64,000 nt of DNA from an uncultured Lachnospiraceae bacterium. Lineage in GTDB: Bacteria > Bacillota > Clostridia > Lachnospirales > Lachnospiraceae. Positions 15,289 to 42,299 of this stretch are shown here, one piece after another. The translations under genes were made by a program, and so were the position numbers. Numbering within the stretch: position 1 is the stretch's first letter; the number at the start of each line of letters is the position of its first letter. The notes under the pieces are model-generated. The model did no database searches and was not told the DNA's origin. It worked only from the letters and a program-made list of their open reading frames with translations. Location: contig CATLHM010000014.1 in NCBI GenBank assembly GCA_949949005.1, forward strand, positions 1 to 64,000. The letters are read 5' to 3'.

Positions 15289-15330
15289 AGGGCTGCCGCA
15301 TTCAATTACGGATACGGCAGCCCTGTTTTT
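15289..15330. terminator. Bidirectional terminator between uxaC and the lipoprotein gene
   Basis: AGGGCTGCCG (15289-15298) pairs with CGGCAGCCCT (15315-15324). The plus strand continues GTTTTT and the minus strand TTTCTTCTC, so it can end both convergent transcripts. The 15325-15358 stretch beyond is AT-rich with repeated ATCTGTTTTT-like words. Confidence 0.88.
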
Positions 15331-15358: not shown

Positions 15359-17908
15359 TTATCTGTTCTCATTCACATAAATCTGCACCCGGCTCTGGAT
15401 AATGGAAGCCACTTCCGGCGCCTTTTTCTGACCTGCGAAAAATGGCCCTGCCTCCTCCCGGACAATATTGAGCAGCGTATCGTCCGCCCGGTAAAGCTGG
15501 GTGAAGCTGTAGAGCTGGGCAACGATCTCATCCGCTCTTTCCCTGGTTATGGGCGAAATCACCACCTCCACGCCATTGATATAGGCAGTCTCGTCGTACT
15601 CCACCTTGTTGTTTTTTTCATCCGTGTAGTAGGGCCTTTCCATTGCCCTCTCCACCTGCTCATTCAGGAATTTTATGCTCAGCGGGAAACCATATTCTAA
15701 ATCCCCCTGATACTCATCCATCAGGAAGGTTCGCAAAAATTCCCATGCCCCCTCACTGTTCTTTGATTTCGCTGAGAGCGCAAACCGCAGGCTGGGCCAG
15801 ATCACAGAACCATCCCCGTCAGAGGAGGGAAAGCCGATCATGGTGATCTCCTCCCCAAAGGTTCCCTTTTCTATACTGTTAAAGTTACGCAGATCGCCGA
15901 TACTTGCATAATTGGCGATTACTCTGCCCTCCCTCCACATGGAATCGTAATTATCCCAGAAGTCACTGGGCATAGCGTCCCAGTTTACCTCCTCCGGGAA
16001 GGTGGCAATGAACTCCAGCATCTGAATAAATCCGTCGGAATTAAAATTACAGGTACCGCTGTCCCAGTCTATGAACTGACTGCCTGACATGGTAAAGCAA
16101 TATTGCAGCATGGAGTCTCTGTCTATGTTGTTCAGGAACTGGGTACCTTCAGGCTTTGAGGCCAGAAGATCCTTCACATCCTGTACCGTCCATCCCCGCT
16201 CTTTCCCCACCTCCGAGGTCTTGGCTACAAGCGTGTCTATGGAATAAGAGGGAACAAGGCTGTAGAGCTTTCCGTCCACGCAGCAGGCTTCGATCACATT
16301 GGGCATAAAATCCTCAATGGAAAAAGCTTCGTCCTTTTCAATGAAAGGCTTTAAATCTGCAAAAAGCCCCTTGCTGATATAGCTGTCCACCGGCATGGAA
16401 TTGTCCAGAAGCAGGATATCCGGTACCTTTCCAGAGACAATATCCGTATTCAGCCGGTTAATCCCTGCCCGCCAGTCATCATCCGTGCCATACAGGGCAT
16501 CATAGTCCAGAATTGATATCCTGTATTCCTCGCTGTTTTTGTTAAAATCTATGGCAAGCCGTCTGATTCCCCAATCCGTATTGGTCATGGCAAGGGTAAT
16601 CACCTGCTTATCCTTTACCTCCCCCGGATCTACCTTGGTAAACCTGGTAAGGGTATCTGACGTATCCCAATCGCTGGTAATCGCCAGAAATTCCTGATCG
16701 CTCAGACCTGTCACCTGATAAACGGAATAATAGGAAAGATCGGAATCCACAAAACTCATAATCGGCGTTTTGTCCTCATCTCCCAGATTATACCCATACA
16801 CTCCATAGCTGCTTGTCAGATAAAGATCATAGTCAAACCCCGGATAGTAGGAATACTCATAAGACCTGCCGGGCAACGAATATTTCTCCCCAAGGGTTCC
16901 CGCCTCCAAATCCGCCAGGGCAAGAGACATACCGTTCTCCTCATAAATTATGGCCACCATCCGCCCATCGTCAAGAGTAATCAGAGTGGATACCTCCTCA
17001 AAGGGATTTTGCTGCCCTTCCTTTACCACACTTTTCACAAAATTTCCTTCCAGGTCAAATTGGAAGAACTGGTTATAGAGGTTGAAATACAGTGCCTTGC
17101 CCTGTTTCAGATACATATCTCCGATATAAAAATATCCGTTTTCTTCCCCCAGGGCCTTAAACTGAGGTACATCATTGAGTTTGACAGAGAAAATCTCCTC
17201 CCCCTCAAGAGTCATCTTCACCAGATAATAATCGTCAATAGACTCCCCTTCCTCAAAAATGGGTTCCTCGCTTGCCACTTCGCCGTATGACCCGCTCTCA
17301 GCCTCCGTATCGGCTTCCGGCCCATCCTCTGCCACAGTTTCATCCTCAGTTTCAGCTTCACCTTCTGCCTCCGCGCCCTCTTCTGCCCCTTCCTCTGCTG
17401 TATCTTCCTCATCCCTGGGTTGAGGCTCGCTTCCATCCTCCTGGGTATCCCCTGAAACAGGCTCCTCCGCGTCCAACACTGTGAGGGCCGAATTCCCCAT
17501 AATATTCTCTGACGAGGGAGAATAGTATACATTTTTCACACAATACAGATTGGCTTCCTCGTCCATGAGAATTCTGTTAATGCTTGAATTTGGTTCATTG
17601 TGAATCTCATAAGTCTCGCCGATGGTTCCATCCTCGCCGATCTCATTGAAAATGAGGACATACTCCCCGCTATCCATCCAGCGGCTTCCATAGGCATAGA
17701 GCTTATCTCCTGCCCTGAAAATCTGGTTCACGCTCTGCTCGTCATCGTCCTTCAGCCCCAGGGCCGTCGCGCGGTATACATAATCCTTTGACACGGCAGT
17801 TGTCGCTGTGCCCCCATCTTTCTGCTCTTTCCCGCACCCGAAAAGCCCTGCGGTTACAAGCAGAGCTACCGCCCCTATAACCCACTTCTTTTTCGTCAAC
17901 TTTTTCAT
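15359..17908 (-). CDS. Large lipoprotein: propeller-like domain fused to extracellular solute-binding domain (copy 1)
   Basis: An 849-residue predicted lipoprotein with signal peptide and lipobox LFGC (Cys25). Residues about 40-430 contain repeated short beta-strand-like blocks (GDKLYAYGSRW, EANLYCVKNVYYS, NGYFYIGDMYLK, DDGRMVAIIYEE) that resemble a sensor beta-propeller. Residues about 440-849 are a family-1 type solute-binding domain (RRLAIDFNKNSEEYRI, PDILLLDNSMPVD, LVPSYSIDTLVAKTSEVG, KNSEGAWEFLRTFL). An acidic Glu/Ala-rich segment at about 148-220 interrupts the propeller region. It is a paralogue of the 23267-25522 protein: same architecture, and both end in IQ(S/N)R(V/I)QIYVNEN. It is last in the six-gene cluster, 124 nt after the MacB-like gene. 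Ligand unknown; carbohydrate is inferred from the CUT1-like permeases. Confidence 0.85.
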   Translation of the reverse strand: MKKLTKKKWVIGAVALLVTAGLFGCGKEQKDGGTATTAVSKDYVYRATALGLKDDDEQSVNQIFRAGDKLYAYGSRWMDSGEYVLIFNEIGEDGTIGETYEIHNEPNSSINRILMDEEANLYCVKNVYYSPSSENIMGNSALTVLDAEEPVSGDTQEDGSEPQPRDEEDTAEEGAEEGAEAEGEAETEDETVAEDGPEADTEAESGSYGEVASEEPIFEEGESIDDYYLVKMTLEGEEIFSVKLNDVPQFKALGEENGYFYIGDMYLKQGKALYFNLYNQFFQFDLEGNFVKSVVKEGQQNPFEEVSTLITLDDGRMVAIIYEENGMSLALADLEAGTLGEKYSLPGRSYEYSYYPGFDYDLYLTSSYGVYGYNLGDEDKTPIMSFVDSDLSYYSVYQVTGLSDQEFLAITSDWDTSDTLTRFTKVDPGEVKDKQVITLAMTNTDWGIRRLAIDFNKNSEEYRISILDYDALYGTDDDWRAGINRLNTDIVSGKVPDILLLDNSMPVDSYISKGLFADLKPFIEKDEAFSIEDFMPNVIEACCVDGKLYSLVPSYSIDTLVAKTSEVGKERGWTVQDVKDLLASKPEGTQFLNNIDRDSMLQYCFTMSGSQFIDWDSGTCNFNSDGFIQMLEFIATFPEEVNWDAMPSDFWDNYDSMWREGRVIANYASIGDLRNFNSIEKGTFGEEITMIGFPSSDGDGSVIWPSLRFALSAKSKNSEGAWEFLRTFLMDEYQGDLEYGFPLSIKFLNEQVERAMERPYYTDEKNNKVEYDETAYINGVEVVISPITRERADEIVAQLYSFTQLYRADDTLLNIVREEAGPFFAGQKKAPEVASIIQSRVQIYVNENR

Positions 17909-17984
17909 ACTAATAGCCCTACCCTCTCCGTGACCTGCAAACTTTCATACATGCTGTACGTGTATTGGCAGGCACAATGTTTGC

Positions 17985-18031
17985 AAAACGAACACGTTCG
18001 TTTTAACCTCTAAGCCACCGCCAGGCGGCTT
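17985..18031 (-). terminator. Tandem hairpins between MacB-like gene and lipoprotein gene
   Basis: Right after the 18033 stop, minus-strand AAGCCGCC-TGGC-GGTGGCTT forms an 8-bp stem with one G-T pair. Then a palindrome AAAACGAAC/GTTCGTTTT follows (17985-18004). They may attenuate or process the transcript before the last gene. No convincing promoter was found in 17909-17984. Confidence 0.5.
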
Positions 18032-18032
18032 T

Positions 18033-19127
18033 TTAAAAATGCTCCCACTTATTCTTCTCACCGCGAACCTTTTGCAGCGCCTTATCTTTAATATCAATGG
18101 CAAAATTTTTTACATCCCTAAACCCAAAGGTTCTGTTCTTCCATTTTATGATGAGGAATACTACAAATATCACTGCCGGAATCAGAAGAAACAGGCACCT
18201 GAAAATCAGTGCCAGAGCCGCTACATCCTCCCAGCCCCTTCCAATATTCTCCCAATAGGGAAACTTGATGGCGGCGTTTTGCATGGAACGGGTGCCGAAA
18301 GAGAGAATCACAGGAATCAACGCCTCCACGCCATAGCGGGCGGAATTTTCCAGCGCCAGCATATCTCTTTCCTCCACTCCCAGATTTTCCTTCACACAGT
18401 TAAGCAAAAAGCCCTTTACCGGATTGGGGGCCGTCACCTCATAGACGCTGATTCCCTGGGTTTCCCCGTAAGCGCGAAGGGATTCGCTGGAAACATATAC
18501 CACAGTCTCGGACAGTCCCGCCCCTTCTGCAAAACGATCCTCCTGCCGTTTCACCACGCCGGATATATAATGGGGAACTCCGCCGATCAGCACACTCTTT
18601 CCGGCAATGTCACTGGAACCGAAAAGCTGCCACGCCGCGTCCTCATCCAGAACAACAAAATCTTTCATCAGATTATCCCCGGAAAAATAACTGCCTGACA
18701 CTAGCTCAAGGGGATGAAAGAGGAAAAAGTCGCCCCCGATCCCCACCGCATTGGCTTCCAGATTTCCTTTATCGCTGACTACTTTAATTCTGCCAAGAGC
18801 GCTGTAGGCGTCAATAAACAACCGCTTATTCTCCTGCTGGTTTTCCCGCAGCTCAGAGCTGACCTCCAAAAGGCTTTGTTCCAGCTTCTGCTGAAAACTC
18901 TTGATCGTAAACTCGTCTATCTCCACCCCCTCTGCCAGAAAACAACTAACCTGGGCGCTGCCGCCCTCCTGATCCCAGCGTCTTGCGGCCTGCTGGTCAA
19001 TGAGACTGCCTGTCTTGTGACGAATCCACAGAGACAAAATAAGATACAGGATAAGAGAGAGGAAAAATAGCAGGGAAAACACAATCTGTTTCAGAGTCAG
19101 ACCCTGTAGAAATCTTTTTATTTTCAT
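18033..19127 (-). CDS. MacB-like extracellular (PCD) domain protein with two membrane anchors
   Basis: A 364-residue protein with an N-terminal membrane segment (about 15-33), a large extracellular domain, and one strong C-terminal membrane segment (about 304-328) before a basic cytoplasmic tail. The middle resembles the MacB periplasmic core domain: VGIGGDFFLFHPLELVSG, then VVLDEDAAWQLFGSSDIAGK and VPHYISGVVKR. Normal MacB/YknZ permeases have four membrane segments, three of them C-terminal; here only one follows the core domain, so it is shortened relative to a working FtsX-type permease. It sits 66 nt after an HlyD-type adaptor gene, the usual MacA-MacB pairing, but no ATPase gene is present. 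Start ATG at 19127 has GGGGAG upstream. Function unknown. Confidence 0.7.
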   Translation of the reverse strand: MKIKRFLQGLTLKQIVFSLLFFLSLILYLILSLWIRHKTGSLIDQQAARRWDQEGGSAQVSCFLAEGVEIDEFTIKSFQQKLEQSLLEVSSELRENQQENKRLFIDAYSALGRIKVVSDKGNLEANAVGIGGDFFLFHPLELVSGSYFSGDNLMKDFVVLDEDAAWQLFGSSDIAGKSVLIGGVPHYISGVVKRQEDRFAEGAGLSETVVYVSSESLRAYGETQGISVYEVTAPNPVKGFLLNCVKENLGVEERDMLALENSARYGVEALIPVILSFGTRSMQNAAIKFPYWENIGRGWEDVAALALIFRCLFLLIPAVIFVVFLIIKWKNRTFGFRDVKNFAIDIKDKALQKVRGEKNKWEHF

Positions 19128-19153
19128 TGTGCTTCTCCCCTTTCTCCTATTCG

Positions 19154-19196
19154 TTAAACATCAAGATGTCTGGCAAAGCCTGCCATCTGTTTTTTA
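19154..19196. repeat. Dispersed hairpin repeat, copy C
   Basis: TTAAACATCA precedes an 11-3-11 hairpin AGATGTCTGGC-AAA-GCCTGCCATCT followed by GTTTTTT. Layout matches copies at 32018 and 51498, including the central T-T mismatch at stem position 8, but this copy has one further mismatch. It fills most of the gap between the adaptor gene and the MacB-like gene. Confidence 0.65.
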
Positions 19197-21248
19197 CGAT
19201 TCATTTAATCTGACCTGTTTGCCCGCCTCCACAGGCTTGGTGGAGGTGGTGATCACATACTCATACCCGTAAAGGGCCGCGGAAATCGCGGTGTTGGTAT
19301 CGTCTGAAGCCAATACCTCCACATCCACTCTGGTTGCGATATACCGGTTGTTTAAGGGGCCACTTCTGGACTCCACAATCAGTATAAATTTCCCGTTATT
19401 ATCCTCCCGGACAGCGCTGTTAGGCACCACAAATTCATATTCCGTGCTGCGCTGGCCCACGGAAACGCTCAGGGCCTGGCCAGCCTGGACGCTTTCCCCC
19501 GTCACATTAAACACCAAAAGCTTATTCTGGGAGGGATTATCCGGATCCGGCTTGATGGCCGTGAGGATCACCTGCACATCATCATAATACCAGGCATTTT
19601 GCAGCTCAGCGTTATCACCCACCTGCACCTTTTTCGCCTGCTCATTGGTAACGGAAATGGACATGGTATACCCCTTGCCCTCCACCTGAATCACAGCCGC
19701 AGCCTCCTCCGGTTTGGTGGTTTCTCCTGCCACATAGGCCAGATTCGTGACCGTTCCGGCCACCGGGGCATTGATGGTGGCCCCCGTGGAATTTTCTTTC
19801 AGCTTCTCAATTTCCGCCTTTTTCTCCGCAATGTCCTTGGTTGCCTTGGAGAGATCCAGCTCCGCATTGATATCGGCAGACAGCTCCGTCTGTTCTGTCT
19901 TAAGCAGCTCGTAAACGGCCTGGGCGTTTTTCAGGGCGGCTTCTGCGTTGGCAAGACGGTTCATTGCCTCTGCGGAGGCCAGCTTATTTGCACCTGTGAT
20001 CTCTCTGATATTTCGCTGGGCCTGTTCCAGCCGGCTTTTGGCCTCCTGTACATCGCCATTAGAGTTGACCGTAACAGCGCTCACCTCGTCCCTGGCCCTT
20101 TGAAGATCCCTTAATTCTTCCTCGAGACTTTCCAGCCTGGATTGCTGGGAATTATCGCTTCCATACTCCCTTAAGGTTTCCGCCGTTGCATTCATGGAAT
20201 CCACCGCAACACGGTACTCCCCGTAAGCTGCTTCATGTTTTTTTTGAATATCCGCTGCCAGATTTGCCCAAGGTAAATTGTTATACCAGTTTCGCACTGC
20301 ATCTTCCCAGGGCCAGCCCTGCTGTGTTTTACTATTTGGTATGTTGCCTCCCAGGGCATTGATGACATTAATTTTTTCTTCAACCAGCGCTCTCTGCTGT
20401 TCAAATAAAGTTCCGCTGGCACTCGATACGGTGTCGCTTCTACTAGGGTTGTTGTTTCCGCCTCCTGTCCCGCTTCCTGTCCCTGTGCCGATACCTGCAC
20501 TTCCCGTTGCCCCCTGGGCTTCACTGATCAGAAGCTTTAAATCATCGATCTGATATTGCTTTTCCTTTATATCACTGTCCAGCTCAGCTAACTTTTTACT
20601 CTTATATTCCTCAAAGGCCGCTGTCGCATTGGTAAGATCCGTATTTGCCGCCGCCTCTGCCATCTCGTCTACAACCGTACTTGCCCCGGCGTCATTGGTG
20701 CTGATGGTATTTTCCAGCGTAATGCTCTCCACCACCTTCTGGCATTCATTTACCCGGTCCTCCGCCGCCTGCAGCCGCTCCTGCATATCCGTCACCATTG
20801 ACTTATAGGAAGAGAAAGAATCCGTATTGCCGCTCGCCACCTTGTTTATGACCTCCGGCGACACCGTGCTGCCGAAAAGCCCCTTCATGTAAGCCAGCTC
20901 CAAATCCGACAGCTCTTTTTCAGCCTGCTTAAGTTCATCACTTTCCTTATCCTCAAGATAATAAAGAACCTGATCCTTTTCCACCGTATCGCCCTGCTTG
21001 ACGGCCACACTGGAAATCACCCGGGTGTCCTTTACCATCACGCTGTAAGGGTCTGTGGCCTCCACATTCCCTGTTCCCCGCACCTTAGCGGTAATGGAGC
21101 CGCTCTGCACATACTGGGTCGCCACCTCTGGCAGGGAATAATTCATAATCGTATTGGAAAAAAAGGTAAGGATCAACATGATCGTCAAAAAGATGATCGC
21201 CGCATTCTTTACCCATTCTCTTCTTTTCTTTCCTTCGTTCTCATTCAT
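19194..21248 (-). CDS. HlyD/MacA-family membrane-fusion adaptor with very long coiled coil
   Basis: A 684-residue protein with a cytoplasmic basic N-terminus and one membrane anchor (about 13-35). Then comes the first half of a biotinyl-lipoyl-like domain (GSITAKVRGTGNVEATDPYSVMVKD... GDTVEKDQVLYYLED), extensive alpha-helical coiled-coil arms (about 105-500) broken by a glycine/serine-rich patch near 255-275, and the second lipoyl half (TINAPVAGTVTNLAYVAGE). A beta-barrel and membrane-proximal part close it (VQVGDNAELQ, VPNSAVRED). Such adaptors normally bridge an export ABC permease (MacB/YknZ type). The coiled-coil region is much longer than in YknX-like adaptors. It follows the importer permease genes by 34 nt in the same direction, an unusual pairing. 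Confidence 0.85.
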   Translation of the reverse strand: MNENEGKKRREWVKNAAIIFLTIMLILTFFSNTIMNYSLPEVATQYVQSGSITAKVRGTGNVEATDPYSVMVKDTRVISSVAVKQGDTVEKDQVLYYLEDKESDELKQAEKELSDLELAYMKGLFGSTVSPEVINKVASGNTDSFSSYKSMVTDMQERLQAAEDRVNECQKVVESITLENTISTNDAGASTVVDEMAEAAANTDLTNATAAFEEYKSKKLAELDSDIKEKQYQIDDLKLLISEAQGATGSAGIGTGTGSGTGGGNNNPSRSDTVSSASGTLFEQQRALVEEKINVINALGGNIPNSKTQQGWPWEDAVRNWYNNLPWANLAADIQKKHEAAYGEYRVAVDSMNATAETLREYGSDNSQQSRLESLEEELRDLQRARDEVSAVTVNSNGDVQEAKSRLEQAQRNIREITGANKLASAEAMNRLANAEAALKNAQAVYELLKTEQTELSADINAELDLSKATKDIAEKKAEIEKLKENSTGATINAPVAGTVTNLAYVAGETTKPEEAAAVIQVEGKGYTMSISVTNEQAKKVQVGDNAELQNAWYYDDVQVILTAIKPDPDNPSQNKLLVFNVTGESVQAGQALSVSVGQRSTEYEFVVPNSAVREDNNGKFILIVESRSGPLNNRYIATRVDVEVLASDDTNTAISAALYGYEYVITTSTKPVEAGKQVRLNES

Positions 21249-21282
21249 AGCCTTATCCCTTCCGTTCCTGTTTCTAATATAT

Positions 21283-22278
21283 CTATCCTTTAATACCGCC
21301 CTGATAGGTGATTCCCTCTACCAAATAATCCTCTCCATACAAAAATACCAGAATGGGAGGAACCATATATATGGTAGCTACCGCAAAAGCCAGCCCGATC
21401 TCCCCTGCGTTAATCTTTGAGAGAAACACAGAAAGAGGATGCTTTTCCTGATCTGATAACAGAATCAGCGGCTGCTCCACCATATTCCAGTAGTCGATAA
21501 AAAGCAAAATTGCAATGGAGCACATGGCGCCCTTACATAATGGCATACAAATATGCCTGAAAATCTGCCACTCTCCGGCTCCGTCAATCTGCGCCGCTTC
21601 CATCATGGATACAGGAATTCTGCGCATATACTTGGTCAGGAGATATACCGCAAAAGGAGAAAAAATCCCGGGCAGCCAGATGGCCCAATTGGTATCCAGA
21701 AGATGAAGCCACTCTGACACCAGATAGTTGGGAACCAACGTTACCTGGTAGGGCATCAGCATCAGAATAATATATACAAAAAAGATGATTTCCTTGATCC
21801 TTCCCCGGTATCTGGTAAACCCGTAAGAAGCCCCTGCCGCCACCAAAAGCTGAAACGCCACAATGGGAACCACCAGAATTACGGAATTCCAAAACTTAAA
21901 CAGATATTCCGGGCTCTTAAACAATACCGTAATATATTGGCTGAAGGATACCATGTCCGGAATAAATTTCAGATTCACTTTTTCCGCAATATATACTTTG
22001 CCACCGGTATCGGTGGTGGCAAAAACCTGCCCGTAATTGGATGAAATTTCTGAGGCAGACATAAAAGAGTTGGTAATCGTGAGCACAATCGGCATCAGGA
22101 AAAGTACCGCAAAACATGCCGCCACCGTTGTGGCAATACAGACCCGAACCAAGTGTCTGGCGTTTCTTATCTTCTTTTTCTTTTTTACTTCTTTATCCCA
22201 TCGCTCCTGCGAAAGCTCTCCCAGATCTTTCTTTATTCTGATTTTCTTTTCGCTTTTCCCTGACGTTTGCTTTCTCAT
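21283..22278 (-). CDS. Carbohydrate ABC transporter permease, MalG/CUT1 type
   Basis: Second inner-membrane subunit of a CUT1-like importer. The 331-residue protein has a basic N-terminal tail of about 40 residues, then six predicted membrane helices. The EAA coupling loop reads EAAQIDGAGEWQIFRHICMPL, the surface that meets the ATPase. An extra extracellular stretch (about 75-110) lies between the first two helices. The start overlaps the upstream permease stop by 4 nt (ATGA). No msmX/ugpC-like ATPase gene is in the window; in many Firmicutes such importers share one encoded elsewhere. Confidence 0.92.
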   Translation of the reverse strand: MRKQTSGKSEKKIRIKKDLGELSQERWDKEVKKKKKIRNARHLVRVCIATTVAACFAVLFLMPIVLTITNSFMSASEISSNYGQVFATTDTGGKVYIAEKVNLKFIPDMVSFSQYITVLFKSPEYLFKFWNSVILVVPIVAFQLLVAAGASYGFTRYRGRIKEIIFFVYIILMLMPYQVTLVPNYLVSEWLHLLDTNWAIWLPGIFSPFAVYLLTKYMRRIPVSMMEAAQIDGAGEWQIFRHICMPLCKGAMCSIAILLFIDYWNMVEQPLILLSDQEKHPLSVFLSKINAGEIGLAFAVATIYMVPPILVFLYGEDYLVEGITYQGGIKG

Positions 22279-23246
22279 CCTTCCACATCCTTTCCGAAAT
22301 AATTCTCGGTCAGGAACAAGATACCGATAATAATGACCATGACAATCGCCATCATGATGGCCGCCGCCGACATTTTCTGGTAATCCAGCCTGCTGAAGGT
22401 GTTGTTCATAAAATGCTGTAACATATACATGGTGTCATAGGGATAATCTCCCTTTAAGAGATAGATTTCCCTGAAAACCTTAAAAGAATTTATGAGGGAC
22501 ATGATTGTCACAAACAAAATCGTGGATGACATATAGCGCAGCTTAATATGCCAGAAAATCTGAAAAGGGGTTGCGCTCTCAAGCACCGCCACCTCAAGGA
22601 TATCCTTGGGGATGCTGCTCAAAGCGGACATGAACAGAATCATGTTATAACCCAGATTTTTCCACAAAAAAAGAACGACAATCACCACCTGGGCAAAAGA
22701 AGAATTCAGCCAGTCCACCTTATCCCTCTGAAAAAGGGTAAGAACCTCATTCATCATCCCGTTATAGTGAAACAATACCTGCCAGATCAAAACCACTGAG
22801 GCTATGGGCACCATCATGGGGCTCAAAAAGAAAGTCCGAAACTGACTTCTGAAGGGAATTTTACTCTCAAGCATCATAGCCAGCATCAGGGACAATACTA
22901 CCGCCAGGGGCACCGCCACCACCGAAAAAGTCATGGTGTTTCGGGCCGCCTGCTTAAAGGCATTATTCTGAAATACGGATACGAAATTGTCCAGGAACAC
23001 AAATTGCCTGCTAATAGGGTTGTCCACCACGGAATAGAAAATCACGATCAGAAAGGGTAACACGAAAAACAGCAGTACTCCCAGAATGCTGGGAAACAAG
23101 TACCCAGCGGATACCAGCTTCCCCTTACGCGTTCTCGGACTGCTGCTTTTCTTGGACTTATTTTTTGTTATTTTTTTTCCTTTCCGCAGAAAATCCCACA
23201 GTAGATTCTGCGAAATTTTTCTGCGGAAACCTTCAGGAAAATGCAT
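22275..23246 (-). CDS. Carbohydrate ABC transporter permease, MalF/CUT1 type
   Basis: First permease subunit of the importer. The 323-residue protein has a long basic cytoplasmic N-terminus (about 1-45, KKITKNKSKKSSSPRTRKGK), six predicted membrane helices, and an EAA-like loop (EVAVLESATPFQIFWHIKLRYM) in which the usual EAA-G pattern is only partly kept. GAGGG lies 7 nt before the ATG. It starts 20 nt after the upstream binding lipoprotein gene and overlaps the next permease gene by 4 nt, so the three are one transcription unit. Confidence 0.92.
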   Translation of the reverse strand: MHFPEGFRRKISQNLLWDFLRKGKKITKNKSKKSSSPRTRKGKLVSAGYLFPSILGVLLFFVLPFLIVIFYSVVDNPISRQFVFLDNFVSVFQNNAFKQAARNTMTFSVVAVPLAVVLSLMLAMMLESKIPFRSQFRTFFLSPMMVPIASVVLIWQVLFHYNGMMNEVLTLFQRDKVDWLNSSFAQVVIVVLFLWKNLGYNMILFMSALSSIPKDILEVAVLESATPFQIFWHIKLRYMSSTILFVTIMSLINSFKVFREIYLLKGDYPYDTMYMLQHFMNNTFSRLDYQKMSAAAIMMAIVMVIIIGILFLTENYFGKDVEG

Positions 23247-23266
23247 CCTACATCCCTCACAGTTTC

Positions 23267-25522
23267 TTAACTGTTTTCATTTACATATATCTGAATCCGG
23301 TTCTGAATAATTCCGGCCACATCCGCCGCCGTCTTCTGTCCCTTAAAGAAGGGTTCCGATTCCTCCGTAATAATACTCACAAGCTGTTGATCCACACTGC
23401 CGGATATCTTTTCCGCAGACTCGATCAGCTTCCTCACCGCATCTACCTCTTCCTGGGTAGCCGCCATGATCTCCATCTGGAAATCGTCCCATCCCCAGGT
23501 GGTCTTTGCCTGCTCCACCTTATTTCCGTTTTCATCCTCATAATAGTCAGGAGTCATATCCTTTTCAAATTGCTTTTCAAGGGAAGCTTTTCTTATAGGG
23601 AATCCATATCCGCCGCGGCTCTCAACAAGACTGTCCTGATATTCTGCCGAAAGCAGGATCTGCATAAATTCCCATGCTCCCTCCTTATTCTTTGACTTGG
23701 AGGCAAGCCCCATGCAGCCCGCCGCAGGCTGGATCAGATTTCCTTTTCGCTCACTGTTGGGGTAGCCAAGGAAAGCCACCTCCTCCCCAAACATACCCTT
23801 TAACATCTGATACTCCTGTACGGAGCTGACGCTGGTATCCATGAGCAGAATCTTGTCAGAACGGATCCTGGAAGATATTCCTTCCTCCTCCTGCTGATAA
23901 TCATATTCCTCCGGGAAACCGGCGGCAAATTCCAGGGTTTTGATAAAGTCCTCCCCGTCAAAGGAGCACTTGCCGCTCTCCCAGTCGATAAATTCATCTA
24001 TATTATTGTAAATACAGTAATAGAATATACTGCTTCTGCTTCCATAGGAAAACAGGCTCTGAGGATCCTTATCCTGGGCAAATTCCAGCATTTCCTTAAG
24101 GGTCCAGCCACTCTTATCTCCCACCTTGGATGCCTTGGCCAACGTAGTGCTTACATAGAAATTGGGGAAAATGCCATAGAGCTTACCATCCTCCTCATAG
24201 GCCTTAAAAATATTCTCAAGGTAATCCTCTTTCTTAACACCGCTTTTTTCCATATAAGGATACAAGTCCTCTAATACGCCCTTGCTCACATACATGTGAA
24301 AGTCCACATTGCTCAGACTGATGATGTCCGGACAGTTGGCCGTGGTTAAGTCCGCATTGAACTGTGTGTAGGCCGCCTGATAGTCTTCCACGTTCTCCCC
24401 ATATTCCTTTACGGTAATACGGTATTTTTCGTTGGTCTTGTTGAAATCTATAATAGCCCTTTTGACATTACTGTCCACCCACATGGCTCCATAAGATATT
24501 TTTTCCTTTTGAGGAACCTCGGAGGCTTTCTTTTTGCTCAGAAGTATCAACTCACAGGAGGAAGGGCCATTCTCACTATACTCTCTTGTTACCGCCCACA
24601 CACGGCCGTCGGAGAGCTCTCCCTTCTGGGAAACCGAATCACTGTTGATATCCGCGTCAATCCACTTAAAGAGCACCTCTTCCTCTCCTGTGGAAAGGTC
24701 AAAGGTGGAAACCTGGCTCCTGTTGTCAAAGAGAAAGCTTTTCGTGGCTCCGGTCATAAACTCTGAATTTCCATAGCCTCCGCCAAATCCTTCCATGGGC
24801 TCTCCCAGCTTTTTGGTCCCCAGATCCACTTTTCGCATCTCCAGTCCCTTTTCCCCATAAGTGGAGATATATACGTCCCCTTCCTTGGAGGCCGCCATGG
24901 AATTGATCCACCCCTCTATGTCGATATCGCAGACCTTATTTCCATTCTGATCCACTACGTGGATTCCGCTGTCGCCGTCGCTCAAATAGATATTTCCCTG
25001 GCCATCGGTGCAGAAATTCTGTACATAGGCGTTGTCCGGATCGCTGAAAACCTGGCTGAGATCCTTTTTTTCCTGGATAGAGCCGTCTTCCGCAGACACT
25101 ACCCACAGCTCTTGTTTCGAGGAATAGTTTGTCGGTTCGCCGTTCTCATCCTCCTCATAGGAATAAGAATTCACCATCATAAGCAAACTTCCGTCCGCTC
25201 CTGCAGCCATGCCGTTGATATTGCTGTTCTCATCCAGTTCAAGAGAAAGGGACTCTCCCTTGTTTTCTGTCAAATCATATTTGTAAAGACTATTGCTGCT
25301 CTCCCCTGTCTCTTCGTCCCAGGAAACCGTGTTCAGATAGACGCAATCCTGCGCTGCCGTCACAGCACTGATATAATTACACTCAACATCCATCTCCACA
25401 TACTCGGGTACATATACATAACCGCCAGTCTCTGTCCCGGAATCGCTGCCTTTCCCGCATCCCCAGAGCACTGCCAGAAAGGCAGTGAGGGCTATCGCTA
25501 TCAGTTTTTTGTTTTTTTTCAT
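23267..25522 (-). CDS. Large lipoprotein: propeller-like domain fused to extracellular solute-binding domain (copy 2)
   Basis: A 751-residue predicted lipoprotein (lipobox LWGC, Cys22). Residues about 45-340 show beta-propeller style repeats (DGSLLMMVNS, GQGNIYLSDGDSGIHVVD, KEGDVYISTYG, DGRVWAVTREY). Residues about 350-751 form the solute-binding domain (VKRAIIDFNKTNEKYRITVKEY, CPDIISLSNVDFHMYVSKG, YGIFPNFYVSTTLAKAS, KNKEGAWEFMQILLS). It lacks the acidic insert of its paralogue at 15359-17908. It is the first gene of the six-gene cluster, directly behind a strong promoter and 20 nt before the MalF-type permease, so it is the likeliest primary ligand-binding subunit. Ligand unknown. Confidence 0.87.
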   Translation of the reverse strand: MKKNKKLIAIALTAFLAVLWGCGKGSDSGTETGGYVYVPEYVEMDVECNYISAVTAAQDCVYLNTVSWDEETGESSNSLYKYDLTENKGESLSLELDENSNINGMAAGADGSLLMMVNSYSYEEDENGEPTNYSSKQELWVVSAEDGSIQEKKDLSQVFSDPDNAYVQNFCTDGQGNIYLSDGDSGIHVVDQNGNKVCDIDIEGWINSMAASKEGDVYISTYGEKGLEMRKVDLGTKKLGEPMEGFGGGYGNSEFMTGATKSFLFDNRSQVSTFDLSTGEEEVLFKWIDADINSDSVSQKGELSDGRVWAVTREYSENGPSSCELILLSKKKASEVPQKEKISYGAMWVDSNVKRAIIDFNKTNEKYRITVKEYGENVEDYQAAYTQFNADLTTANCPDIISLSNVDFHMYVSKGVLEDLYPYMEKSGVKKEDYLENIFKAYEEDGKLYGIFPNFYVSTTLAKASKVGDKSGWTLKEMLEFAQDKDPQSLFSYGSRSSIFYYCIYNNIDEFIDWESGKCSFDGEDFIKTLEFAAGFPEEYDYQQEEEGISSRIRSDKILLMDTSVSSVQEYQMLKGMFGEEVAFLGYPNSERKGNLIQPAAGCMGLASKSKNKEGAWEFMQILLSAEYQDSLVESRGGYGFPIRKASLEKQFEKDMTPDYYEDENGNKVEQAKTTWGWDDFQMEIMAATQEEVDAVRKLIESAEKISGSVDQQLVSIITEESEPFFKGQKTAADVAGIIQNRIQIYVNENS

Positions 25523-25565
25523 AATCTACCTCTCATCTTGTATTTCTCTTCTCACCTATCTACAA

Positions 25566-25594
25566 ACTATAGCACAATAGCCTTTAAGAAACAA
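25566..25594 (-). promoter_or_regulatory. Sigma-A promoter for the hybrid transporter cluster
   Basis: Minus-strand TTGTTT (25589-25594), 17-nt spacer, TATAGT (25566-25571), about 45 nt before the first lipoprotein start. No dedicated regulator gene is next to the cluster. Confidence 0.8.
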
Positions 25595-32314: not shown

Positions 32315-33593
32315 TTAATTATCTGTCAATGGCGGTTTCCCGATCAGAACCTTCTTCCCGCAGAAAGCAAACCCGTATTTTCGGATCCGTTCTTTCGGGA
32401 TTCCCTTTGCCACAAGCGACGCCTGATAATCCTTCTCCTCAATCTGCCACAATGCCTCCTGCACCGTGTCCGCCAATTCCCTTTCCTCTTCCTCCTGCAC
32501 TTTAAATTCTATAATTATTGCATCATTTGCTCCGGGGCCTGTTTCCCTGGGTTCCAGCATAATATCATACCGCCCAAACCCGCTTTCCCGATTTGACGTA
32601 ATCACATAACGGTCAGAGAGTTCCACCATAAGCCCCAGCACAAAGCCATGATAAAAGCGTTCCGGCTCGTCCATGGAAGGCCTTTTCCCGGTGTCAAAAT
32701 AGCTGAACATCTCCACGCTCACCCTGTTCATATAAGTGTTCATCGCCTTTAAATCCCCGATCAGCAAAGCTTTGATAAAATCATTGTACCCGGAGGATGC
32801 ACCGGCAAACCATTTACGCACTATATACTTCTTCCTCCGTAAATCCATAACAATCTTCATATTTCTCCGTTGTCATTGTCACTACCCTTAGATTGTTCAA
32901 ATCTGAAAAAATAGATTCTTTACTCACCCGTGTAATACCTGTCATAAGGGCGCGTTCCAGATAGGGATTCGTTTTGAAGGTGGCATTGAAAAGGTTTCTG
33001 GTAAAAGACACCATTTCCCTCCAATACCCATTCACATAGGCTTCCTGCATGGGCGTATCATACTCATCCAAAAGCAGGATCACCTTTTTCCCATAATACC
33101 TCATCAGATAATTCGACAGCACATTCAGGGCATCCACTGCAATATAATCCTCCATATCCACCGATACCCTGCCATAGAACTCCTTTTCTTTTTCATTCAA
33201 TAGCCCACACTCAACCAGAAAATCGAATTTATTGTACAACTCGGTAATGATCTGGCAGATTCTTTTTTTGGCGCTTGGAAAAGAAGTCTCCTTCACCTTT
33301 GCAAAGCTGAGCGCAATCACGGGCCATGTTCCCTGCAGCTTACGGAATTTCTCATGCCGCCATATAAAAAGATCTTCAAAAAGCTCCCCTCTGCCTGCAT
33401 ATTCTATGGAAAAGAACTTCTCCAGCATGCTCATGTTCAATGTTTTTCCGAACCTTCTTGGCCTTGTGATCAGCGTCACGTCATCATCCGTTTCCCACCA
33501 CTCTCTGATAAAGTGTGTTTTATCGATATAGAAATTGTGGTTGATTCTCACTTTTTCGAAATCCTGCTTGCCAATCCCTATGGTTCTGCTCAT
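32315..33593 (-). pseudogene. Decayed AAA-ATPase/PD-(D/E)XK-like gene (internal deletion and frameshift)
   Basis: Two overlapping reading frames are parts of one family protein. Frame 1 (33593 to 32814, 259 residues) carries NFYIDKTHFIREWW, the P-loop-like ITRPRRFGKTLNMSMLEKFF, the Walker B-like VILLLDEYDTPMQEA and TGITRVSKESIFSDLNNL, then stops just after YGFTEEEVYSA. Frame 2 (to 32315) resumes at RKWFAGASSGYNDFIKALL and ends with the nuclease-like part: ESGFGRYDIMLEP, then IIEFKV. The segment normally between them in this family (WYDGFTFG and NPWSI blocks, roughly 100-150 residues) is missing. A deletion with a frame change therefore split the gene. The intact family is abundant in gut anaerobes and of unclear function. 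The intact SD (GGGAGG) suggests recent decay. Confidence 0.8.
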
Positions 33594-33712
33594 CGTTTGA
33601 TCCTCCCGGCAATATCCCAGCCCTGTTTTTTGCTATTCATATTGTATCATAGAATGGAATAGTTATCTATCTGCAAATACCGGTATTCATTTAATTCGAT
33701 GCTTTAAGGCTA

Positions 33713-33741
33713 TTGACAGAGTTCTGTAAGATATATATAAT
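33713..33741 (+). promoter_or_regulatory. Sigma-A promoter for the tetR-like gene
   Basis: TTGACA (33713-33718), 17-nt spacer, TATAAT (33736-33741), nearly perfect consensus. The putative operator begins at the end of the -10 box, well placed for autorepression. Confidence 0.88.
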
Positions 33742-33769
33742 GACTATATAAAGGAAATTGGTCAAATAG
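33741..33769 (+). promoter_or_regulatory. Putative TetR-family operator, copy 1
   Basis: A 29-bp element starting TGACTATA and ending GGTCAAATAG, with TGAC/GTCA half-sites 16 nt apart. The same ends at the same spacing recur at 34409-34437. It overlaps the transcription start region of the regulator gene. Confidence 0.6.
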
Positions 33770-33780
33770 GAGGCAATAAA

Positions 33781-34368
33781 GTGCCAAAGAGTTATTCAGA
33801 GCAGGAGCGGGAATATATCAGAAAGCGGTTGAAAGAAGAAGCGGCTAAATGCCTTGCGAAGTATGGCGTCCGCCGCACCACGGTCGATGAAATCGTCAAA
33901 AGGGTTAAGATTCCGAAAGGAACTTTCTATCTCTTTTATAAGTCAAAGGAATTGCTTTTGTTTGAAGTCATTCAGGAACAGCAGGAAAATGTCAATCGCA
34001 AGCTGTATCAAGCCATTTCCGGCATTGCCAATACGGAGCTTTCGGCCAAAAAACTGACCGATGTGATATTCGAATTCTATAAAATGACAGAAAAAATGCT
34101 GATTCTGAAATTGATCGATGTAGATGAAGTGGAATTGCTTGTGCGTAAACTGCCAAGGGAAATTGTAGAGGAGCATTTTCAGGATGATACAGATACGATT
34201 GAAAAAATGCTTGCTCTGTTTCCTGTAAAAAAGGAAGCAGACGTAAAGGTTCTCAGTGCCGCATTCCACGCAATTTATTTTGCAACGCTGCATAAAGCAG
34301 AGATTGGCGAACAGTATGATGAAGCATTGTATTCCCTGATTTATGGTATTGTAACACAAATTATTTAA
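33781..34368 (+). CDS. TetR/AcrR-family transcriptional regulator
   Basis: A 195-residue repressor-type protein read from a GTG start with AGGAGG 8 nt upstream. The N-terminal helix-turn-helix is clear (RLKEEAAKCLAKYGVRRTTV then DEIVKRVKIPKGTFYLFYKSKELLL). The C-terminal ligand domain has no recognisable specificity. It is followed by a three-gene ABC-2 exporter in the same direction. Matching 29-bp elements before both units suggest that it represses itself and the exporter until a drug-like ligand binds. Base composition by eye is more AT-rich than the flanking genes. Confidence 0.92.
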   Translation: MPKSYSEQEREYIRKRLKEEAAKCLAKYGVRRTTVDEIVKRVKIPKGTFYLFYKSKELLLFEVIQEQQENVNRKLYQAISGIANTELSAKKLTDVIFEFYKMTEKMLILKLIDVDEVELLVRKLPREIVEEHFQDDTDTIEKMLALFPVKKEADVKVLSAAFHAIYFATLHKAEIGEQYDEALYSLIYGIVTQII

Positions 34369-34408
34369 GGAGTCTGGCCGCCGGCCGGACTTAAAACAGC
34401 TTTTTATT

Positions 34409-34437
34409 TGACTATACAGATTAATCAGGTCAAATAG
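34409..34437 (+). promoter_or_regulatory. Putative TetR-family operator, copy 2
   Basis: A 29-bp element with the same ends as copy 1 (TGACTATA and GGTCAAATAG). Including flanking bases it forms a perfect 8-bp inverted repeat, TATTTGAC and GTCAAATA, 16 nt apart. It lies just before the SD of the ABC ATPase gene; TTGACT at its left edge may double as a weak -35 box. A GTCTGGCCG/GGCCGGAC hairpin (34372-34390) precedes it. Confidence 0.6.
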
Positions 34438-34450
34438 CACGGAGGCAGGT

Positions 34451-35296
34451 ATGATAACAGTAGAAAATCTTTCATTTAGTTACTCGAAAAGCCCATTCAT
34501 TTCCGGTATGAGTTTTTCCGTTTCGGAGGGTGAAATCTTTGGATTTCTGGGACCATCCGGAGCCGGTAAAAGCACATTACAGAAAATCTTGATTGGAATG
34601 TTGCGGACATATCAAGGTTCTTGTATCGTAAATGGCGTTGAGTGTAAAAACCGCACAAAGCATTTCTATGAGAATATAGGGGTTGATTTTGAATTTTCAA
34701 CAATGTATGAAAAGCTGACGGCAAAAGAGAATTTGCAGTTTTTCTCATCACTATACAAAAAACAGCCTCGTCCGGTGGATGTTCTTTTGAAAATGGTGGG
34801 TTTGGAGCAGGATGCCGATAAGCGTGTAGCCGATTATTCAAAGGGAATGAAATCCCGCTTAAACTTTATAAAAGCATTGTTGCATGACCCACCCTTGCTC
34901 TGCCTTGACGAGCCGACCAGCGGGCTTGACCCCGCAAACAGCCGTATGATGAAAAATATGATTTTAGAGGAAAAGGCAAAAGGGAAAACCATTCTTTTGA
35001 CCACGCATAATATGCAGGACGCCGCCGAGCTTTGTGACAGGGTAGCGTTTATTGTAAATGGTAAAATATGCGCCCTTGACAGCCCACATAATCTGATCAT
35101 GTCAAAAGGTGCGGCGGCCGTAACCTATACATGGATTGAGAATGGGGAGCATAGCGCAAGCTGCTCTTTGGAACAAATATCTTCCGATGAGCGGCTGAAA
35201 AGCCTGATCGCTGAAAACCGGCTACAATCCATTCATAGCAGTGAACCAACCTTAAATGACATTTTTATGGATATTACGGGGAGGACGCTGTTATGA
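34451..35296 (+). CDS. ABC-2 type exporter ATP-binding protein
   Basis: The 281-residue ATPase subunit, probably of a drug exporter. Walker A is GPSGAGKST, the signature is the degenerate YSKGMKSRL (normally LSGGQ), Walker B is LLCLDEPTSGLDP and the switch histidine is in LLTTHNMQDA. The C-terminal 60 residues are a short extension seen in DrrA-like ATPases. SD GGAGG precedes the ATG. It overlaps the next permease gene by 4 nt (ATGA). A narrow family label such as fluoroquinolone exporter would be a homology-based guess. Confidence 0.93.
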   Translation: MITVENLSFSYSKSPFISGMSFSVSEGEIFGFLGPSGAGKSTLQKILIGMLRTYQGSCIVNGVECKNRTKHFYENIGVDFEFSTMYEKLTAKENLQFFSSLYKKQPRPVDVLLKMVGLEQDADKRVADYSKGMKSRLNFIKALLHDPPLLCLDEPTSGLDPANSRMMKNMILEEKAKGKTILLTTHNMQDAAELCDRVAFIVNGKICALDSPHNLIMSKGAAAVTYTWIENGEHSASCSLEQISSDERLKSLIAENRLQSIHSSEPTLNDIFMDITGRTLL

Positions 35297-35973
35297 GGTT
35301 AAAAAGGTTGTTTTTAATGGATATGCGCTTTCAGGCAAAATATGGCTTCTATTTTTTATATGAAGCGCTGACCATAATTTATATAGCAGTTCTTTTTGCA
35401 CTTCCCGAAAACTGGAAAGAAAAAGCTGCTGCGATTTTAATCTTTTCCGACCCTGCCTCAATGGGACTGTTCTTCATGGGGGCGATTGTCCTTTTGGAAA
35501 AGAGCCAGAATACAACCTGTGCATTGGCGGTTTCTCCTGTCCATGCAACGGAATATGTGATTGCTAAAGTCAGTTCATTATCCGCCATTTCCCTTGTCGT
35601 TGCAGCTATTTTAGCGTTAGCTGCGGGTGTGGATCATTTGTTCATTGTGCTGTTTGGTACGTTTCTATCCAGTGTGATTTTTACATTGTTTGGAATCATC
35701 GTTGCAACAAAAATTGCAAGTCTTAATCAATTTATATTATGGACTGTACCAATCGAAGCCATTTGCTTTGTTCCTGCAATTTTGCATTTATTTAGAATTA
35801 CTCCTGCATGGTGGGGACATTATCCTGTCAATGTTTGTATGGATATGGTTTCAGGTCGTTCTCTGTCTGCAACAGGTTTTTTGGCCACAACAGCACTGAC
35901 GGTAGTTTTATTTATGCTTTCGAGATTTTGCGTCTTGAAAATGTGGGATCGTATGGGAGGGGTGAAGTTATGA
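35293..35973 (+). CDS. ABC-2 type exporter permease, subunit 1
   Basis: A 226-residue integral membrane protein with about six hydrophobic segments (such as FYFLYEALTIIYIAVLFAL, GLFFMGAIVLL, ISLVVAAILALAAG and FLATTALTVVLFML). It resembles the small permease of fluoroquinolone-type ABC-2 exporters. It overlaps its neighbours by 4 nt on both sides (ATGA), so the three proteins are probably made in step. No extracellular domain is seen. Confidence 0.85.
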   Translation: MRLKRLFLMDMRFQAKYGFYFLYEALTIIYIAVLFALPENWKEKAAAILIFSDPASMGLFFMGAIVLLEKSQNTTCALAVSPVHATEYVIAKVSSLSAISLVVAAILALAAGVDHLFIVLFGTFLSSVIFTLFGIIVATKIASLNQFILWTVPIEAICFVPAILHLFRITPAWWGHYPVNVCMDMVSGRSLSATGFLATTALTVVLFMLSRFCVLKMWDRMGGVKL

Positions 35974-36695
35974 GAGCGATCAGATTAAGCTTTTTCCAAA
36001 TGATAGCTGTTTTGCGTCGGGACATGATGCTGCTTGTATCCTGCCTTGCGCCAATTCTTGCAGGTTTTTTCTTTCGATTTGCCATCCCTTTATTAGAAAC
36101 TGCTTTGACAGACAGTTTTCATATAACGTCAATCATCTCACCCTGTTACGAGTTGATTGATCTACTATTTGCAATGCTCCCGTCCACTATGTTCTGCTTT
36201 GTCTCAGCAATGGTTTCTTTAGAAGAAAGGGATGAAAAGACAGTCAGCTATTTATTCATTACGCCTTTAGGAAAAACAGGCTATCTATTTGCACGGTTTG
36301 GTATTCCTGCTGTTATTGCATTTTTTGCAACTGCTATTCTGTTATCTGTCTTTAAGCTGACGGCTCTTTCTCCACTTACCATTTTATTACTGGCGGCAGG
36401 AGGAACTTTGCAGGGCATGATTGTCGCATTGCTTGTTTTAACGTTTTCGTCAAACAAGCTGGAGGGTATGGCAGTGGCAAAGTTATCTACGCTGACCATT
36501 TTAGGCGCCGTTACCCCGTTTTTCATTCAATCAGACACCCAATACGTAACATCTCCACTGCCCTCTTTTTGGATTGGAAAAGCAATTCTAGAAGATGTAC
36601 CACTTTATATGCTTCCCGCATTTGTTTTGTCTGCCATGTGGATTTACTTTTTGCTAAAACGATATTTGGGTAAAATCCAGGAAAAAATTAATTGA
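35970..36695 (+). CDS. ABC-2 type exporter permease, subunit 2
   Basis: A 241-residue integral membrane protein. The ATG at 35970 is chosen because it overlaps the upstream stop as ATGA and has GGGAGG 8 nt upstream; the longer in-frame reading from 35808 lies inside subunit 1. About six hydrophobic segments are visible (MMLLVSCLAPILAGFFFRFAI, FGIPAVIAFFATAILLSVF, LLLAAGGTLQGMIVALLVL, MLPAFVLSAMWIYFLL). It pairs with subunit 1 as an asymmetric channel. The gene ends 12 nt from the convergent deacetylase gene with no terminator in between. Confidence 0.85.
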   Translation: MRAIRLSFFQMIAVLRRDMMLLVSCLAPILAGFFFRFAIPLLETALTDSFHITSIISPCYELIDLLFAMLPSTMFCFVSAMVSLEERDEKTVSYLFITPLGKTGYLFARFGIPAVIAFFATAILLSVFKLTALSPLTILLLAAGGTLQGMIVALLVLTFSSNKLEGMAVAKLSTLTILGAVTPFFIQSDTQYVTSPLPSFWIGKAILEDVPLYMLPAFVLSAMWIYFLLKRYLGKIQEKIN

Positions 36696-40019: not shown

Positions 40020-40057
40020 ATCCTTAACCTCTTTTCCTCTCACTCCTGTGTATAGCG

Positions 40058-40099
40058 GCCTGTTACGGGACCAGTCCTTTGTATAGGCCCGTAACAGGC
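40058..40099. other. 12-bp hairpin between the two GH31 genes
   Basis: GCCTGTTACGGG (40058-40069) and CCCGTAACAGGC (40088-40099) are perfect complements around an 18-nt loop, placed between the upstream GH31 stop and the downstream SD. No T-run follows, so it probably tunes expression of the second gene or marks an mRNA processing site. Confidence 0.6.
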
Positions 40100-40106
40100 T
40101 ATGGGA

Positions 40107-42113: not shown

Positions 42114-42176
42114 TCTTGCCTCCGTTCCGCCGCCTGCCGACGGCTTTTTTTACAAAATGTTTTTTCAGATTTGTGG

Positions 42177-42204
42177 TTGTATCGAATCTCCGATTTGCTA
42201 TAAT
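42177..42204 (+). promoter_or_regulatory. Possible promoter for the AraC-type regulator
   Basis: TTGTAT (42177-42182), 16-nt spacer, TATAAT (42199-42204) on the plus strand. The GH31 promoter on the minus strand must lie in the same 42114-42299 gap but only a weak TATAGC-like box was seen, as would fit an activator-dependent promoter. Confidence 0.5.
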
Positions 42205-42299
42205 AAAAATATAATGACTAAAAAAGGGATTTTCTTTAACTGAATTGATAATTATTAACACGATTTTGATGTTATTGGCTGAGAACGCCGGGAGGAACT

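Follow-up and report, generated by a model that had tools for sequence, protein, structure and literature searches.

A conserved gene cluster joining a CUT1-type importer to a HlyD/MacA-type adaptor and a two-helix MacB-core protein in Lachnospiraceae

A gene cluster that places the permeases and binding proteins of a sugar-type importer beside components of export families was analysed in a 64,000-nucleotide stretch of DNA, here called the window, from an uncultured Lachnospiraceae bacterium (contig CATLHM010000014.1 of assembly GCA_949949005.1). The genome is a 3.0 Mb assembly in 41 contigs and is 59.2% complete. The cluster is composed of six same-strand open reading frames (ORFs) on the minus strand, window positions 25522-15359, recognised from the ORF list and the translations, and is flanked by a DUF711 gene on one side and a convergent glucuronate isomerase gene on the other (Pfam). 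An earlier reading made from the sequence alone (the sequence-only reading) had placed six genes here and had found no ATPase among them; the ORF list, Pfam and NCBIfam matches confirm the genes and their coordinates, and no ATP-binding cassette (ABC) ATPase gene is present inside the six-gene cluster according to the ORF list and Pfam. The features are as follows, with solute-binding proteins abbreviated as SBPs.

25566..25594, minus strand: weak promoter-like site TTGTTT-17-TATAGT, 8 of 12 consensus bases, absent from the promoter-scan list
23267..25522, minus strand: SBP1, lipoprotein with a propeller-like N-terminal part and a solute-binding part (ORF, Pfam, tree, profile)
22275..23246, minus strand: MalF-type permease, EAA loop without its proline (ORF, Pfam, loop pattern)
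21283..22278, minus strand: MalG-type permease, canonical EAA loop (ORF, Pfam, loop pattern)
19194..21248, minus strand: HlyD/MacA-type adaptor, 684 amino acids, 398-residue hairpin insert (ORF, Pfam, NCBIfam, PDB matches, model)
18033..19127, minus strand: MacB-core protein, 364 amino acids, laid out as helix, periplasmic core, helix (ORF, Pfam, hydropathy)
17985..18004, no strand assigned: inverted repeat of 20 nt in the gap that separates the MacB-core gene from SBP2, a possible operator (repeat search)
15359..17908, minus strand: SBP2, second large solute-binding lipoprotein, of its own lineage (ORF, Pfam, tree)
15289..15324, no strand assigned: terminator-like inverted repeat after SBP2, 10-bp arms (read from the sequence)

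The genes are closely packed, with a 20-nt gap between SBP1 and MalF, a 4-nt overlap of MalF and MalG and a 34-nt gap between MalG and the adaptor, all three as noted earlier, followed by 66 nt between the adaptor and the MacB-core gene and 124 nt between the latter and SBP2. The site at 25566-25594 had been called a strong promoter, a description that does not hold: it is missing from the 15 sites listed by a promoter scan, in which 16.5 were expected by chance. The 10-bp inverted repeat at 15324-15289 could mark the end of the operon; the terminator scan listed loops of 3-8 only and does not include this repeat. No second copy of the 17985-18004 palindrome occurs in the window within three mismatches.

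Both permeases contain the BPD_transp_1 domain (Pfam; E=3.8e-15 for MalF and E=3.2e-13 for MalG). The EAA loop of MalF is recognisable, and by the pattern used its proline is gone in 113 of 115 sequences, while the proline is kept in all four readable ordinary MalF neighbours. In a tree of MalG proteins, the composite loci form one clade that excludes six ordinary CUT1 MalGs, with a support of just 0.60. Both binding proteins have a lipobox, read from the translations, and carry SBP domains (SBP_bac_8 and SBP_bac_1 in SBP1, SBP_bac_1 in SBP2). The propeller that had been proposed for SBP1 is backed by a profile of the N-terminal part built from 24 relatives, which hits chains designated beta-propellers in the PDB with E-values as low as 1.9e-9; single relatives match propeller Pfam families weakly, with Reg_prop in 5 of the 24. 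The C-terminal part of SBP2 matches sugar-type binding proteins, the best being CbpC (E=4.6e-17). In a tree of 173 SBPs, a clade supported at 0.92 takes in 84 of the 85 downstream proteins and not one of the 88 upstream, which indicates that the upstream and downstream binding proteins are separate lineages. Dedicated solute-binding lipoproteins are a hallmark of import.

The assignment of the fourth protein to the HlyD/MacA type is confirmed by the HlyD_3 domain (26.4 bits against a Pfam cut-off of 22.2), by MacA chains among its PDB matches and by a structural model; NCBIfam RND_mfp matches with E=4.2e-20, yet stays under its curated cut-off. The AlphaFold2 model (mean pLDDT 78.7, pTM 0.38) predicts an N-terminal helix at residues 9-35, a lipoyl-like part with its strands split, helical arms within 104-249 and 365-487 that include one helix of 90 residues, and strands to the end, and it is poor at residues 249-280 and 301-330. 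As read from this model, the adaptor would have the MacA layout. With a helix rise of 1.5 A per residue, the 90-residue helix is predicted to be about 135 A long. The hairpin insert, 398 residues in the adaptor of the window and 99 in four loci of the families coded f153 and f85, ranges from 99 to 498 residues over 131 adaptor sequences (median 284) and measures 99-139 in the six short-SBP loci free of contig cuts. For the Gram-positive adaptor Spr0693, the available part of the source describes a hexameric nanotube with a hairpin barrel of 56 A (PMC5768738), to be set against the predicted 135 A of the helix in the window's adaptor.

The fifth protein carries MacB_PCD (36.9 bits against a cut-off of 27, Pfam) and neither an FtsX domain (Pfam) nor an ATPase. 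It had been described as short of membrane helices, and hydropathy agrees, with two; exactly two are predicted in 22 of 27 MacB-core sequences, and five to seven hydrophobic stretches are found in the proteins of families f24 and f71. A motif P-[YFSW]-[WF]-E-[NT] precedes the second helix in 95 of 98 Lachnospiraceae sequences versus 2 of 17 others. In two goat-gut genomes, MacB-core and SBP2 are joined in-frame as one ORF (L071:13006-16293 and L077:12918-16151), in which the lipoprotein signal of SBP2 remains at the junction as a further hydrophobic stretch; the joint ORF would be compatible with an unchanged topology, an internal start within it is possible, and the two cases may be one event.

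The linkage of these genes was examined in relatives. A search of 250 Lachnospiraceae genomes seeded with the MacB-core protein matched 29 at E<=1e-5 and 25 at E<=1e-30, and 24 of the 28 resulting stretches have the order MalF-MalG-adaptor-MacB-core; the four exceptions comprise two stretches that start at contig ends inside the cluster (L037, L040) and two weak matches without MalF and MalG (L057, L058). A scan with a MalG alignment, taking one genome per species, confirmed at least 588 stretches, of which the best 80 were read in six frames and scored with profiles from the MacB-core-seeded set, with which they have some contigs in common. In these best 80 loci, the adaptor follows MalG in 80/80 and the MacB-core protein is present in all 73 loci with more than 3.5 kb downstream, to which its count was confined. 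An SBP follows MacB-core in 62/63, another lies upstream in 53/68, and MalF precedes MalG in 73/74. Median spacings among relatives are 28.5 nt from MalG to the adaptor, 14 nt from the adaptor to MacB-core and -4 nt from MacB-core to SBP2. When the 250 genomes are scored with the MalG profile, 25 lie above 470 bits and the next match is at 279; at the cut-offs used, 24 genomes have both this MalG type and MacB-core, two have one and 224 have neither (Fisher p=3e-31, a value that ignores kinship), and in the two one-sided genomes (G100 and G147) the cluster is cut by contig ends. The records that bear a name and contain a close MalG belong mostly to Lachnospiraceae or to genera placed there, in keeping with the assignment of the window to this family. 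The gene order is also found in four other families of the same class and in three outside it.

The adaptor and MacB-core genes are thus supported as part of the importer operon, and this portion of the sequence-only reading stands (24/28 stretches, all evaluable loci of the best 80), while its further proposals of a conduit or of a coupling to signalling do not come out as the preferred explanation. The order is retained in relatives, a chance insertion of exporter genes is rejected on the conserved order and co-occurrence, and both tests named beforehand as able to refute the reading went in its favour. Because the linkage of adaptor, MacB-core and SBP is near-invariant in relatives, the cluster is no chance mixture.

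The composite is also wider than the first search showed, since a divergent second branch was found: the 25 MalG matches at 240-279 bits are relatives of the importer-adaptor composite. Twenty-two loci were sampled (L292-L313; L055 was in the earlier set, and G170 and G179 were left out). The adaptor is next to MalG in 21 of them, 16 have a MacB-core-like gene (18-62 bits) whose product is predicted to contain 2-5 helices, and one locus, L304, has neither. The MalF EAA-loop proline is kept in 13 of 15 readable sequences. Two of four scanned MacB-core-like proteins reach MacB_PCD at E<=0.001, and one of these also passes the cut-off of that model; of the two adaptors scanned, one is without any Pfam match. 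The genome of the window itself holds a second MalF-MalG-adaptor locus of this branch (L294, G000:C8:70000-87000), in which no MacB-core gene was recognised. Two loci chosen as controls in the belief that they were ordinary importers, L292 and L293, turned out to belong to the divergent branch and to have an adaptor and a MacB-core-like gene; 25 of 250 is therefore a lower bound, and 'neither' is valid only at the cut-offs used.

The missing ATPase finds an explanation outside the family. In 31 loci from other families (L169-L185, L197-L200, L218-L226 and L257), which hold the full quartet or the contig's part of it, a MalK-type ATPase gene directly follows the MacB-core gene in 15. By family code, this holds for 7/8 loci in f105, 4/4 in f153, 2/2 in f85 and 2/3 in f24, and for 0/1 in f71, 0/3 in f42 and 0/10 in f45; in the eighth f105 locus, the MalK-type ATPase is a divergent neighbour of SBP1. 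ABC_tran, OB_MalK and TOBE_2 were found in all four operon MalKs scanned (Pfam). In 12 of 14 genomes with an operon MalK, the sole match at E<=1e-90 belongs to the operon or adjoins it. Two complete operons with a MalK apiece occur in G917, and G780 has two additional MalKs inside ordinary CUT1 gene sets. A LolD-type ATPase as the motor was rejected, the operon ATPase of the relatives being of MalK type, and the earlier idea of an ATPase of MsmX/UgpC type is in keeping with these operons. No MalK-type gene above 200 bits occurs in the stretches of 106 Lachnospiraceae loci, and OB_MalK is present in 226 of 250 genomes of the family. Among the 24 other genomes with a strong MacB-core match, 23 have a MalK match at E<=1e-80, 18 of them with 57-61% full-length identity. 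The lineage of the window thus probably uses a MalK encoded elsewhere in the genome.

The reading we prefer, to which a probability of about 0.6 is given, is that the cluster encodes one multi-subunit CUT1 (MalFGK-type) importer with a built-in MacA/HlyD adaptor and a two-helix MacB-core protein. Every step of the mechanism that goes further than the linkage of the genes and their sequence is conditional. MalF and MalG would form the pore, and import would be driven by a MalK/MsmX-type ATPase that is encoded elsewhere in the lineage of the window and in the operon in several others. The periplasmic part of MacB is the contact site of MacA, according to the portion of the source available (PMC5985334). 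The MacB-core protein keeps this adaptor-binding core and has no ATPase or FtsX coupling parts, and is hence most likely a passive dock for the adaptor beside the permease. The adaptor would assemble on it, extend outward through its very long coiled-coil hairpin and serve as a cell-wall scaffold that holds both large binding lipoproteins at the permease, to which they would pass a ligand, most likely an oligosaccharide. The single physical complex, the import direction, the docking role, the ligand and a MalK acting in trans are all what we infer. A fuller version, in which a MacA-type ring on the two-helix MacB-core protein crosses the wall and brings oligosaccharides from propeller receptors to MalFGK, so that the tripartite principle of export would be turned inward in a new class of ABC importer of monoderms, is put forward as a tentative and somewhat doubtful extension.

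Several findings weigh against the importer with a docked adaptor. No MalK directly follows MacB-core in 16 of the 31 outside loci and in any of the 106 loci of the family; none was found in the genome of the window, at its 59.2% completeness, and in G029 (93% complete), the one exception among the 24 other genomes, the MalK match is weak (207.6 bits) and OB_MalK is absent from the genome. In the tree of MalK proteins, lineage is the main basis of grouping and cis copies are not set apart from trans copies, so that the operon linkage may have arisen more than once. The stretches of 5 of the 28 MacB-core-seeded loci and of 16 of the 80 MalG-seeded loci contain other ABC ATPase ORFs; with 229-271 or 496-612 amino acids, they are not MalK-sized. 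The loss of the EAA-loop proline suggests that the coupling of MalF to MalK may be unusual. Hairpin length shows no correlation with SBP length (111 loci, Spearman 0.14, p=0.16). In a survey of 118 loci, genes for degradation are not a widespread neighbour of the clusters, and an FtsX-type permease is a neighbour in seven.

The same survey identified none of the 22 commonest neighbour groups, which are partly named, as part of the cluster, and gave no clue to the substrate, the nameable recurrent neighbours being housekeeping genes or unrelated transporters. In 7 of the 118 loci, a gene of GH13 amylase type lies upstream of SBP1 (for example L062:4910-6688, the one copy scanned), a hint at alpha-glucan ligands. 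The FtsX-type permease gene (MacB_PCD, FtsX) is large and is exemplified by L082:2181-5627.

The alternative that survives best, although it is judged unlikely, is a sensor or brake, in which the adaptor and MacB-core protein would carry no ligand and would instead sense the cell wall or how far the receptors are occupied, either gating MalFGK or signalling to a kinase. In its favour, 14 of the 22 loci of the second branch have two genes of kinase and regulator size upstream, and each of the two such pairs scanned consists of a histidine kinase and a regulator of OmpR type; the SBPs bear large additional N-terminal parts, and MacB-type proteins are able to pass motion across the membrane, as stated in the part of the source at hand (PMC5985334). 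The cluster of the window, however, has no adjoining kinase/regulator pair by ORF list and Pfam, and no common neighbour group was recognised as a part of it. A wall-spanning conduit, with an adaptor ring on a MacB-core dimer forming a tube that leads the ligand to the permease, appears rather improbable. The predicted MacA layout with its 90-residue helix, the 398-residue insert as against 99 in the f153/f85 loci and the nanotube described for Spr0693 (PMC5768738, available in part) favour such a tube, whereas the pTM of 0.38, the variation of the insert from 99 to 498 residues and the need of a narrow tube to accommodate or cooperate with two binding proteins speak against it.

That ordinary exporter genes simply lie beside an importer, their ATPase and FtsX permease partner being encoded elsewhere, is very improbable. 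Both proteins come from exporter families, and LolD-sized ATPases or an FtsX-type permease occur near some loci, but the linkage to MalFG is invariant, the ATPase next in 15 operons is MalK and not of LolD type, and the MacB-core protein has two helices and no FtsX domain. It is scarcely credible that the complex exports, its MalFGK-like permeases driving substrate outward into the adaptor, for although MacA/HlyD-type adaptors are known mainly from exporters and the MalF EAA loop is altered, two dedicated solute-binding lipoproteins stand in fixed positions and relatives carry a MalK-type ATPase.

The preferred importer with a docked adaptor resembles known systems in part. As in the CUT1 importers with a shared ATPase (MsmX/MsmK) of C. 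bescii, where one ATPase is common to several importers (PMC8579813), and of S. pneumoniae and B. subtilis, and in the case of the multifunctional ATPase of C. phytofermentans (PMC8579813, PMC3899296), MalF and MalG are accompanied by SBPs and no ATPase is encoded in the cluster; unlike these importers, as far as the available parts of the sources describe them, the composite has an adaptor, a MacB-core protein and a MalF without the EAA-loop proline. With the Gram-positive MacAB-like exporters Spr0693-0694-0695 and YknXYZ, it shares a MacA-type adaptor and the MacB periplasmic core, as given in excerpts of PMC5768738 and PMC5985334. It differs from them in that the cluster has no LolD-type ATPase and no FtsX permease and is linked to MalFG and SBPs, in relatives also to MalK, and in that the core is held by two helices only instead of the four-helix FtsX-type permease of the MacAB exporter. 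Mce1 of mycobacteria is likewise an ABC importer that has an elongated part extending outward, according to the portion of the source available (PMC9882608), but Pfam gives no MCE domain for any of the six proteins and the parts are not seen to be related.

The earlier statement that no system of this make-up is described agrees with searches of an open-access library aimed at such a composite, which brought up no paper describing an adaptor with a CUT1 importer. Each part comes from a known family, and we could not find the combination or its conservation described; the cluster gives the impression of a nutrient importer of a kind not yet described, and not of a chance mixture of genes. If this is true, the adaptor principle would extend to uptake by a widespread importer that is never without an adaptor among the loci examined, and would offer a testable answer to how large ligands get through a thick wall to an importer in the membrane. 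Many genes of gut Lachnospiraceae and other Clostridia that would otherwise be annotated as a stray efflux adaptor or a truncated MacB would thereby gain a likely function.

Elsewhere in the window, an AT-richer segment at 32814-36695 holds an AAA-ATPase-like gene and a plus-strand ABC-2-type transporter gene set, and two neighbouring GH31 glycosidase genes lie at 37956-43217 with a divergent AraC-type regulator gene. At 61164-63228, a protein with an OmpA-family domain is encoded in this presumed monoderm, adjoining a 387-amino-acid protein without a Pfam match.

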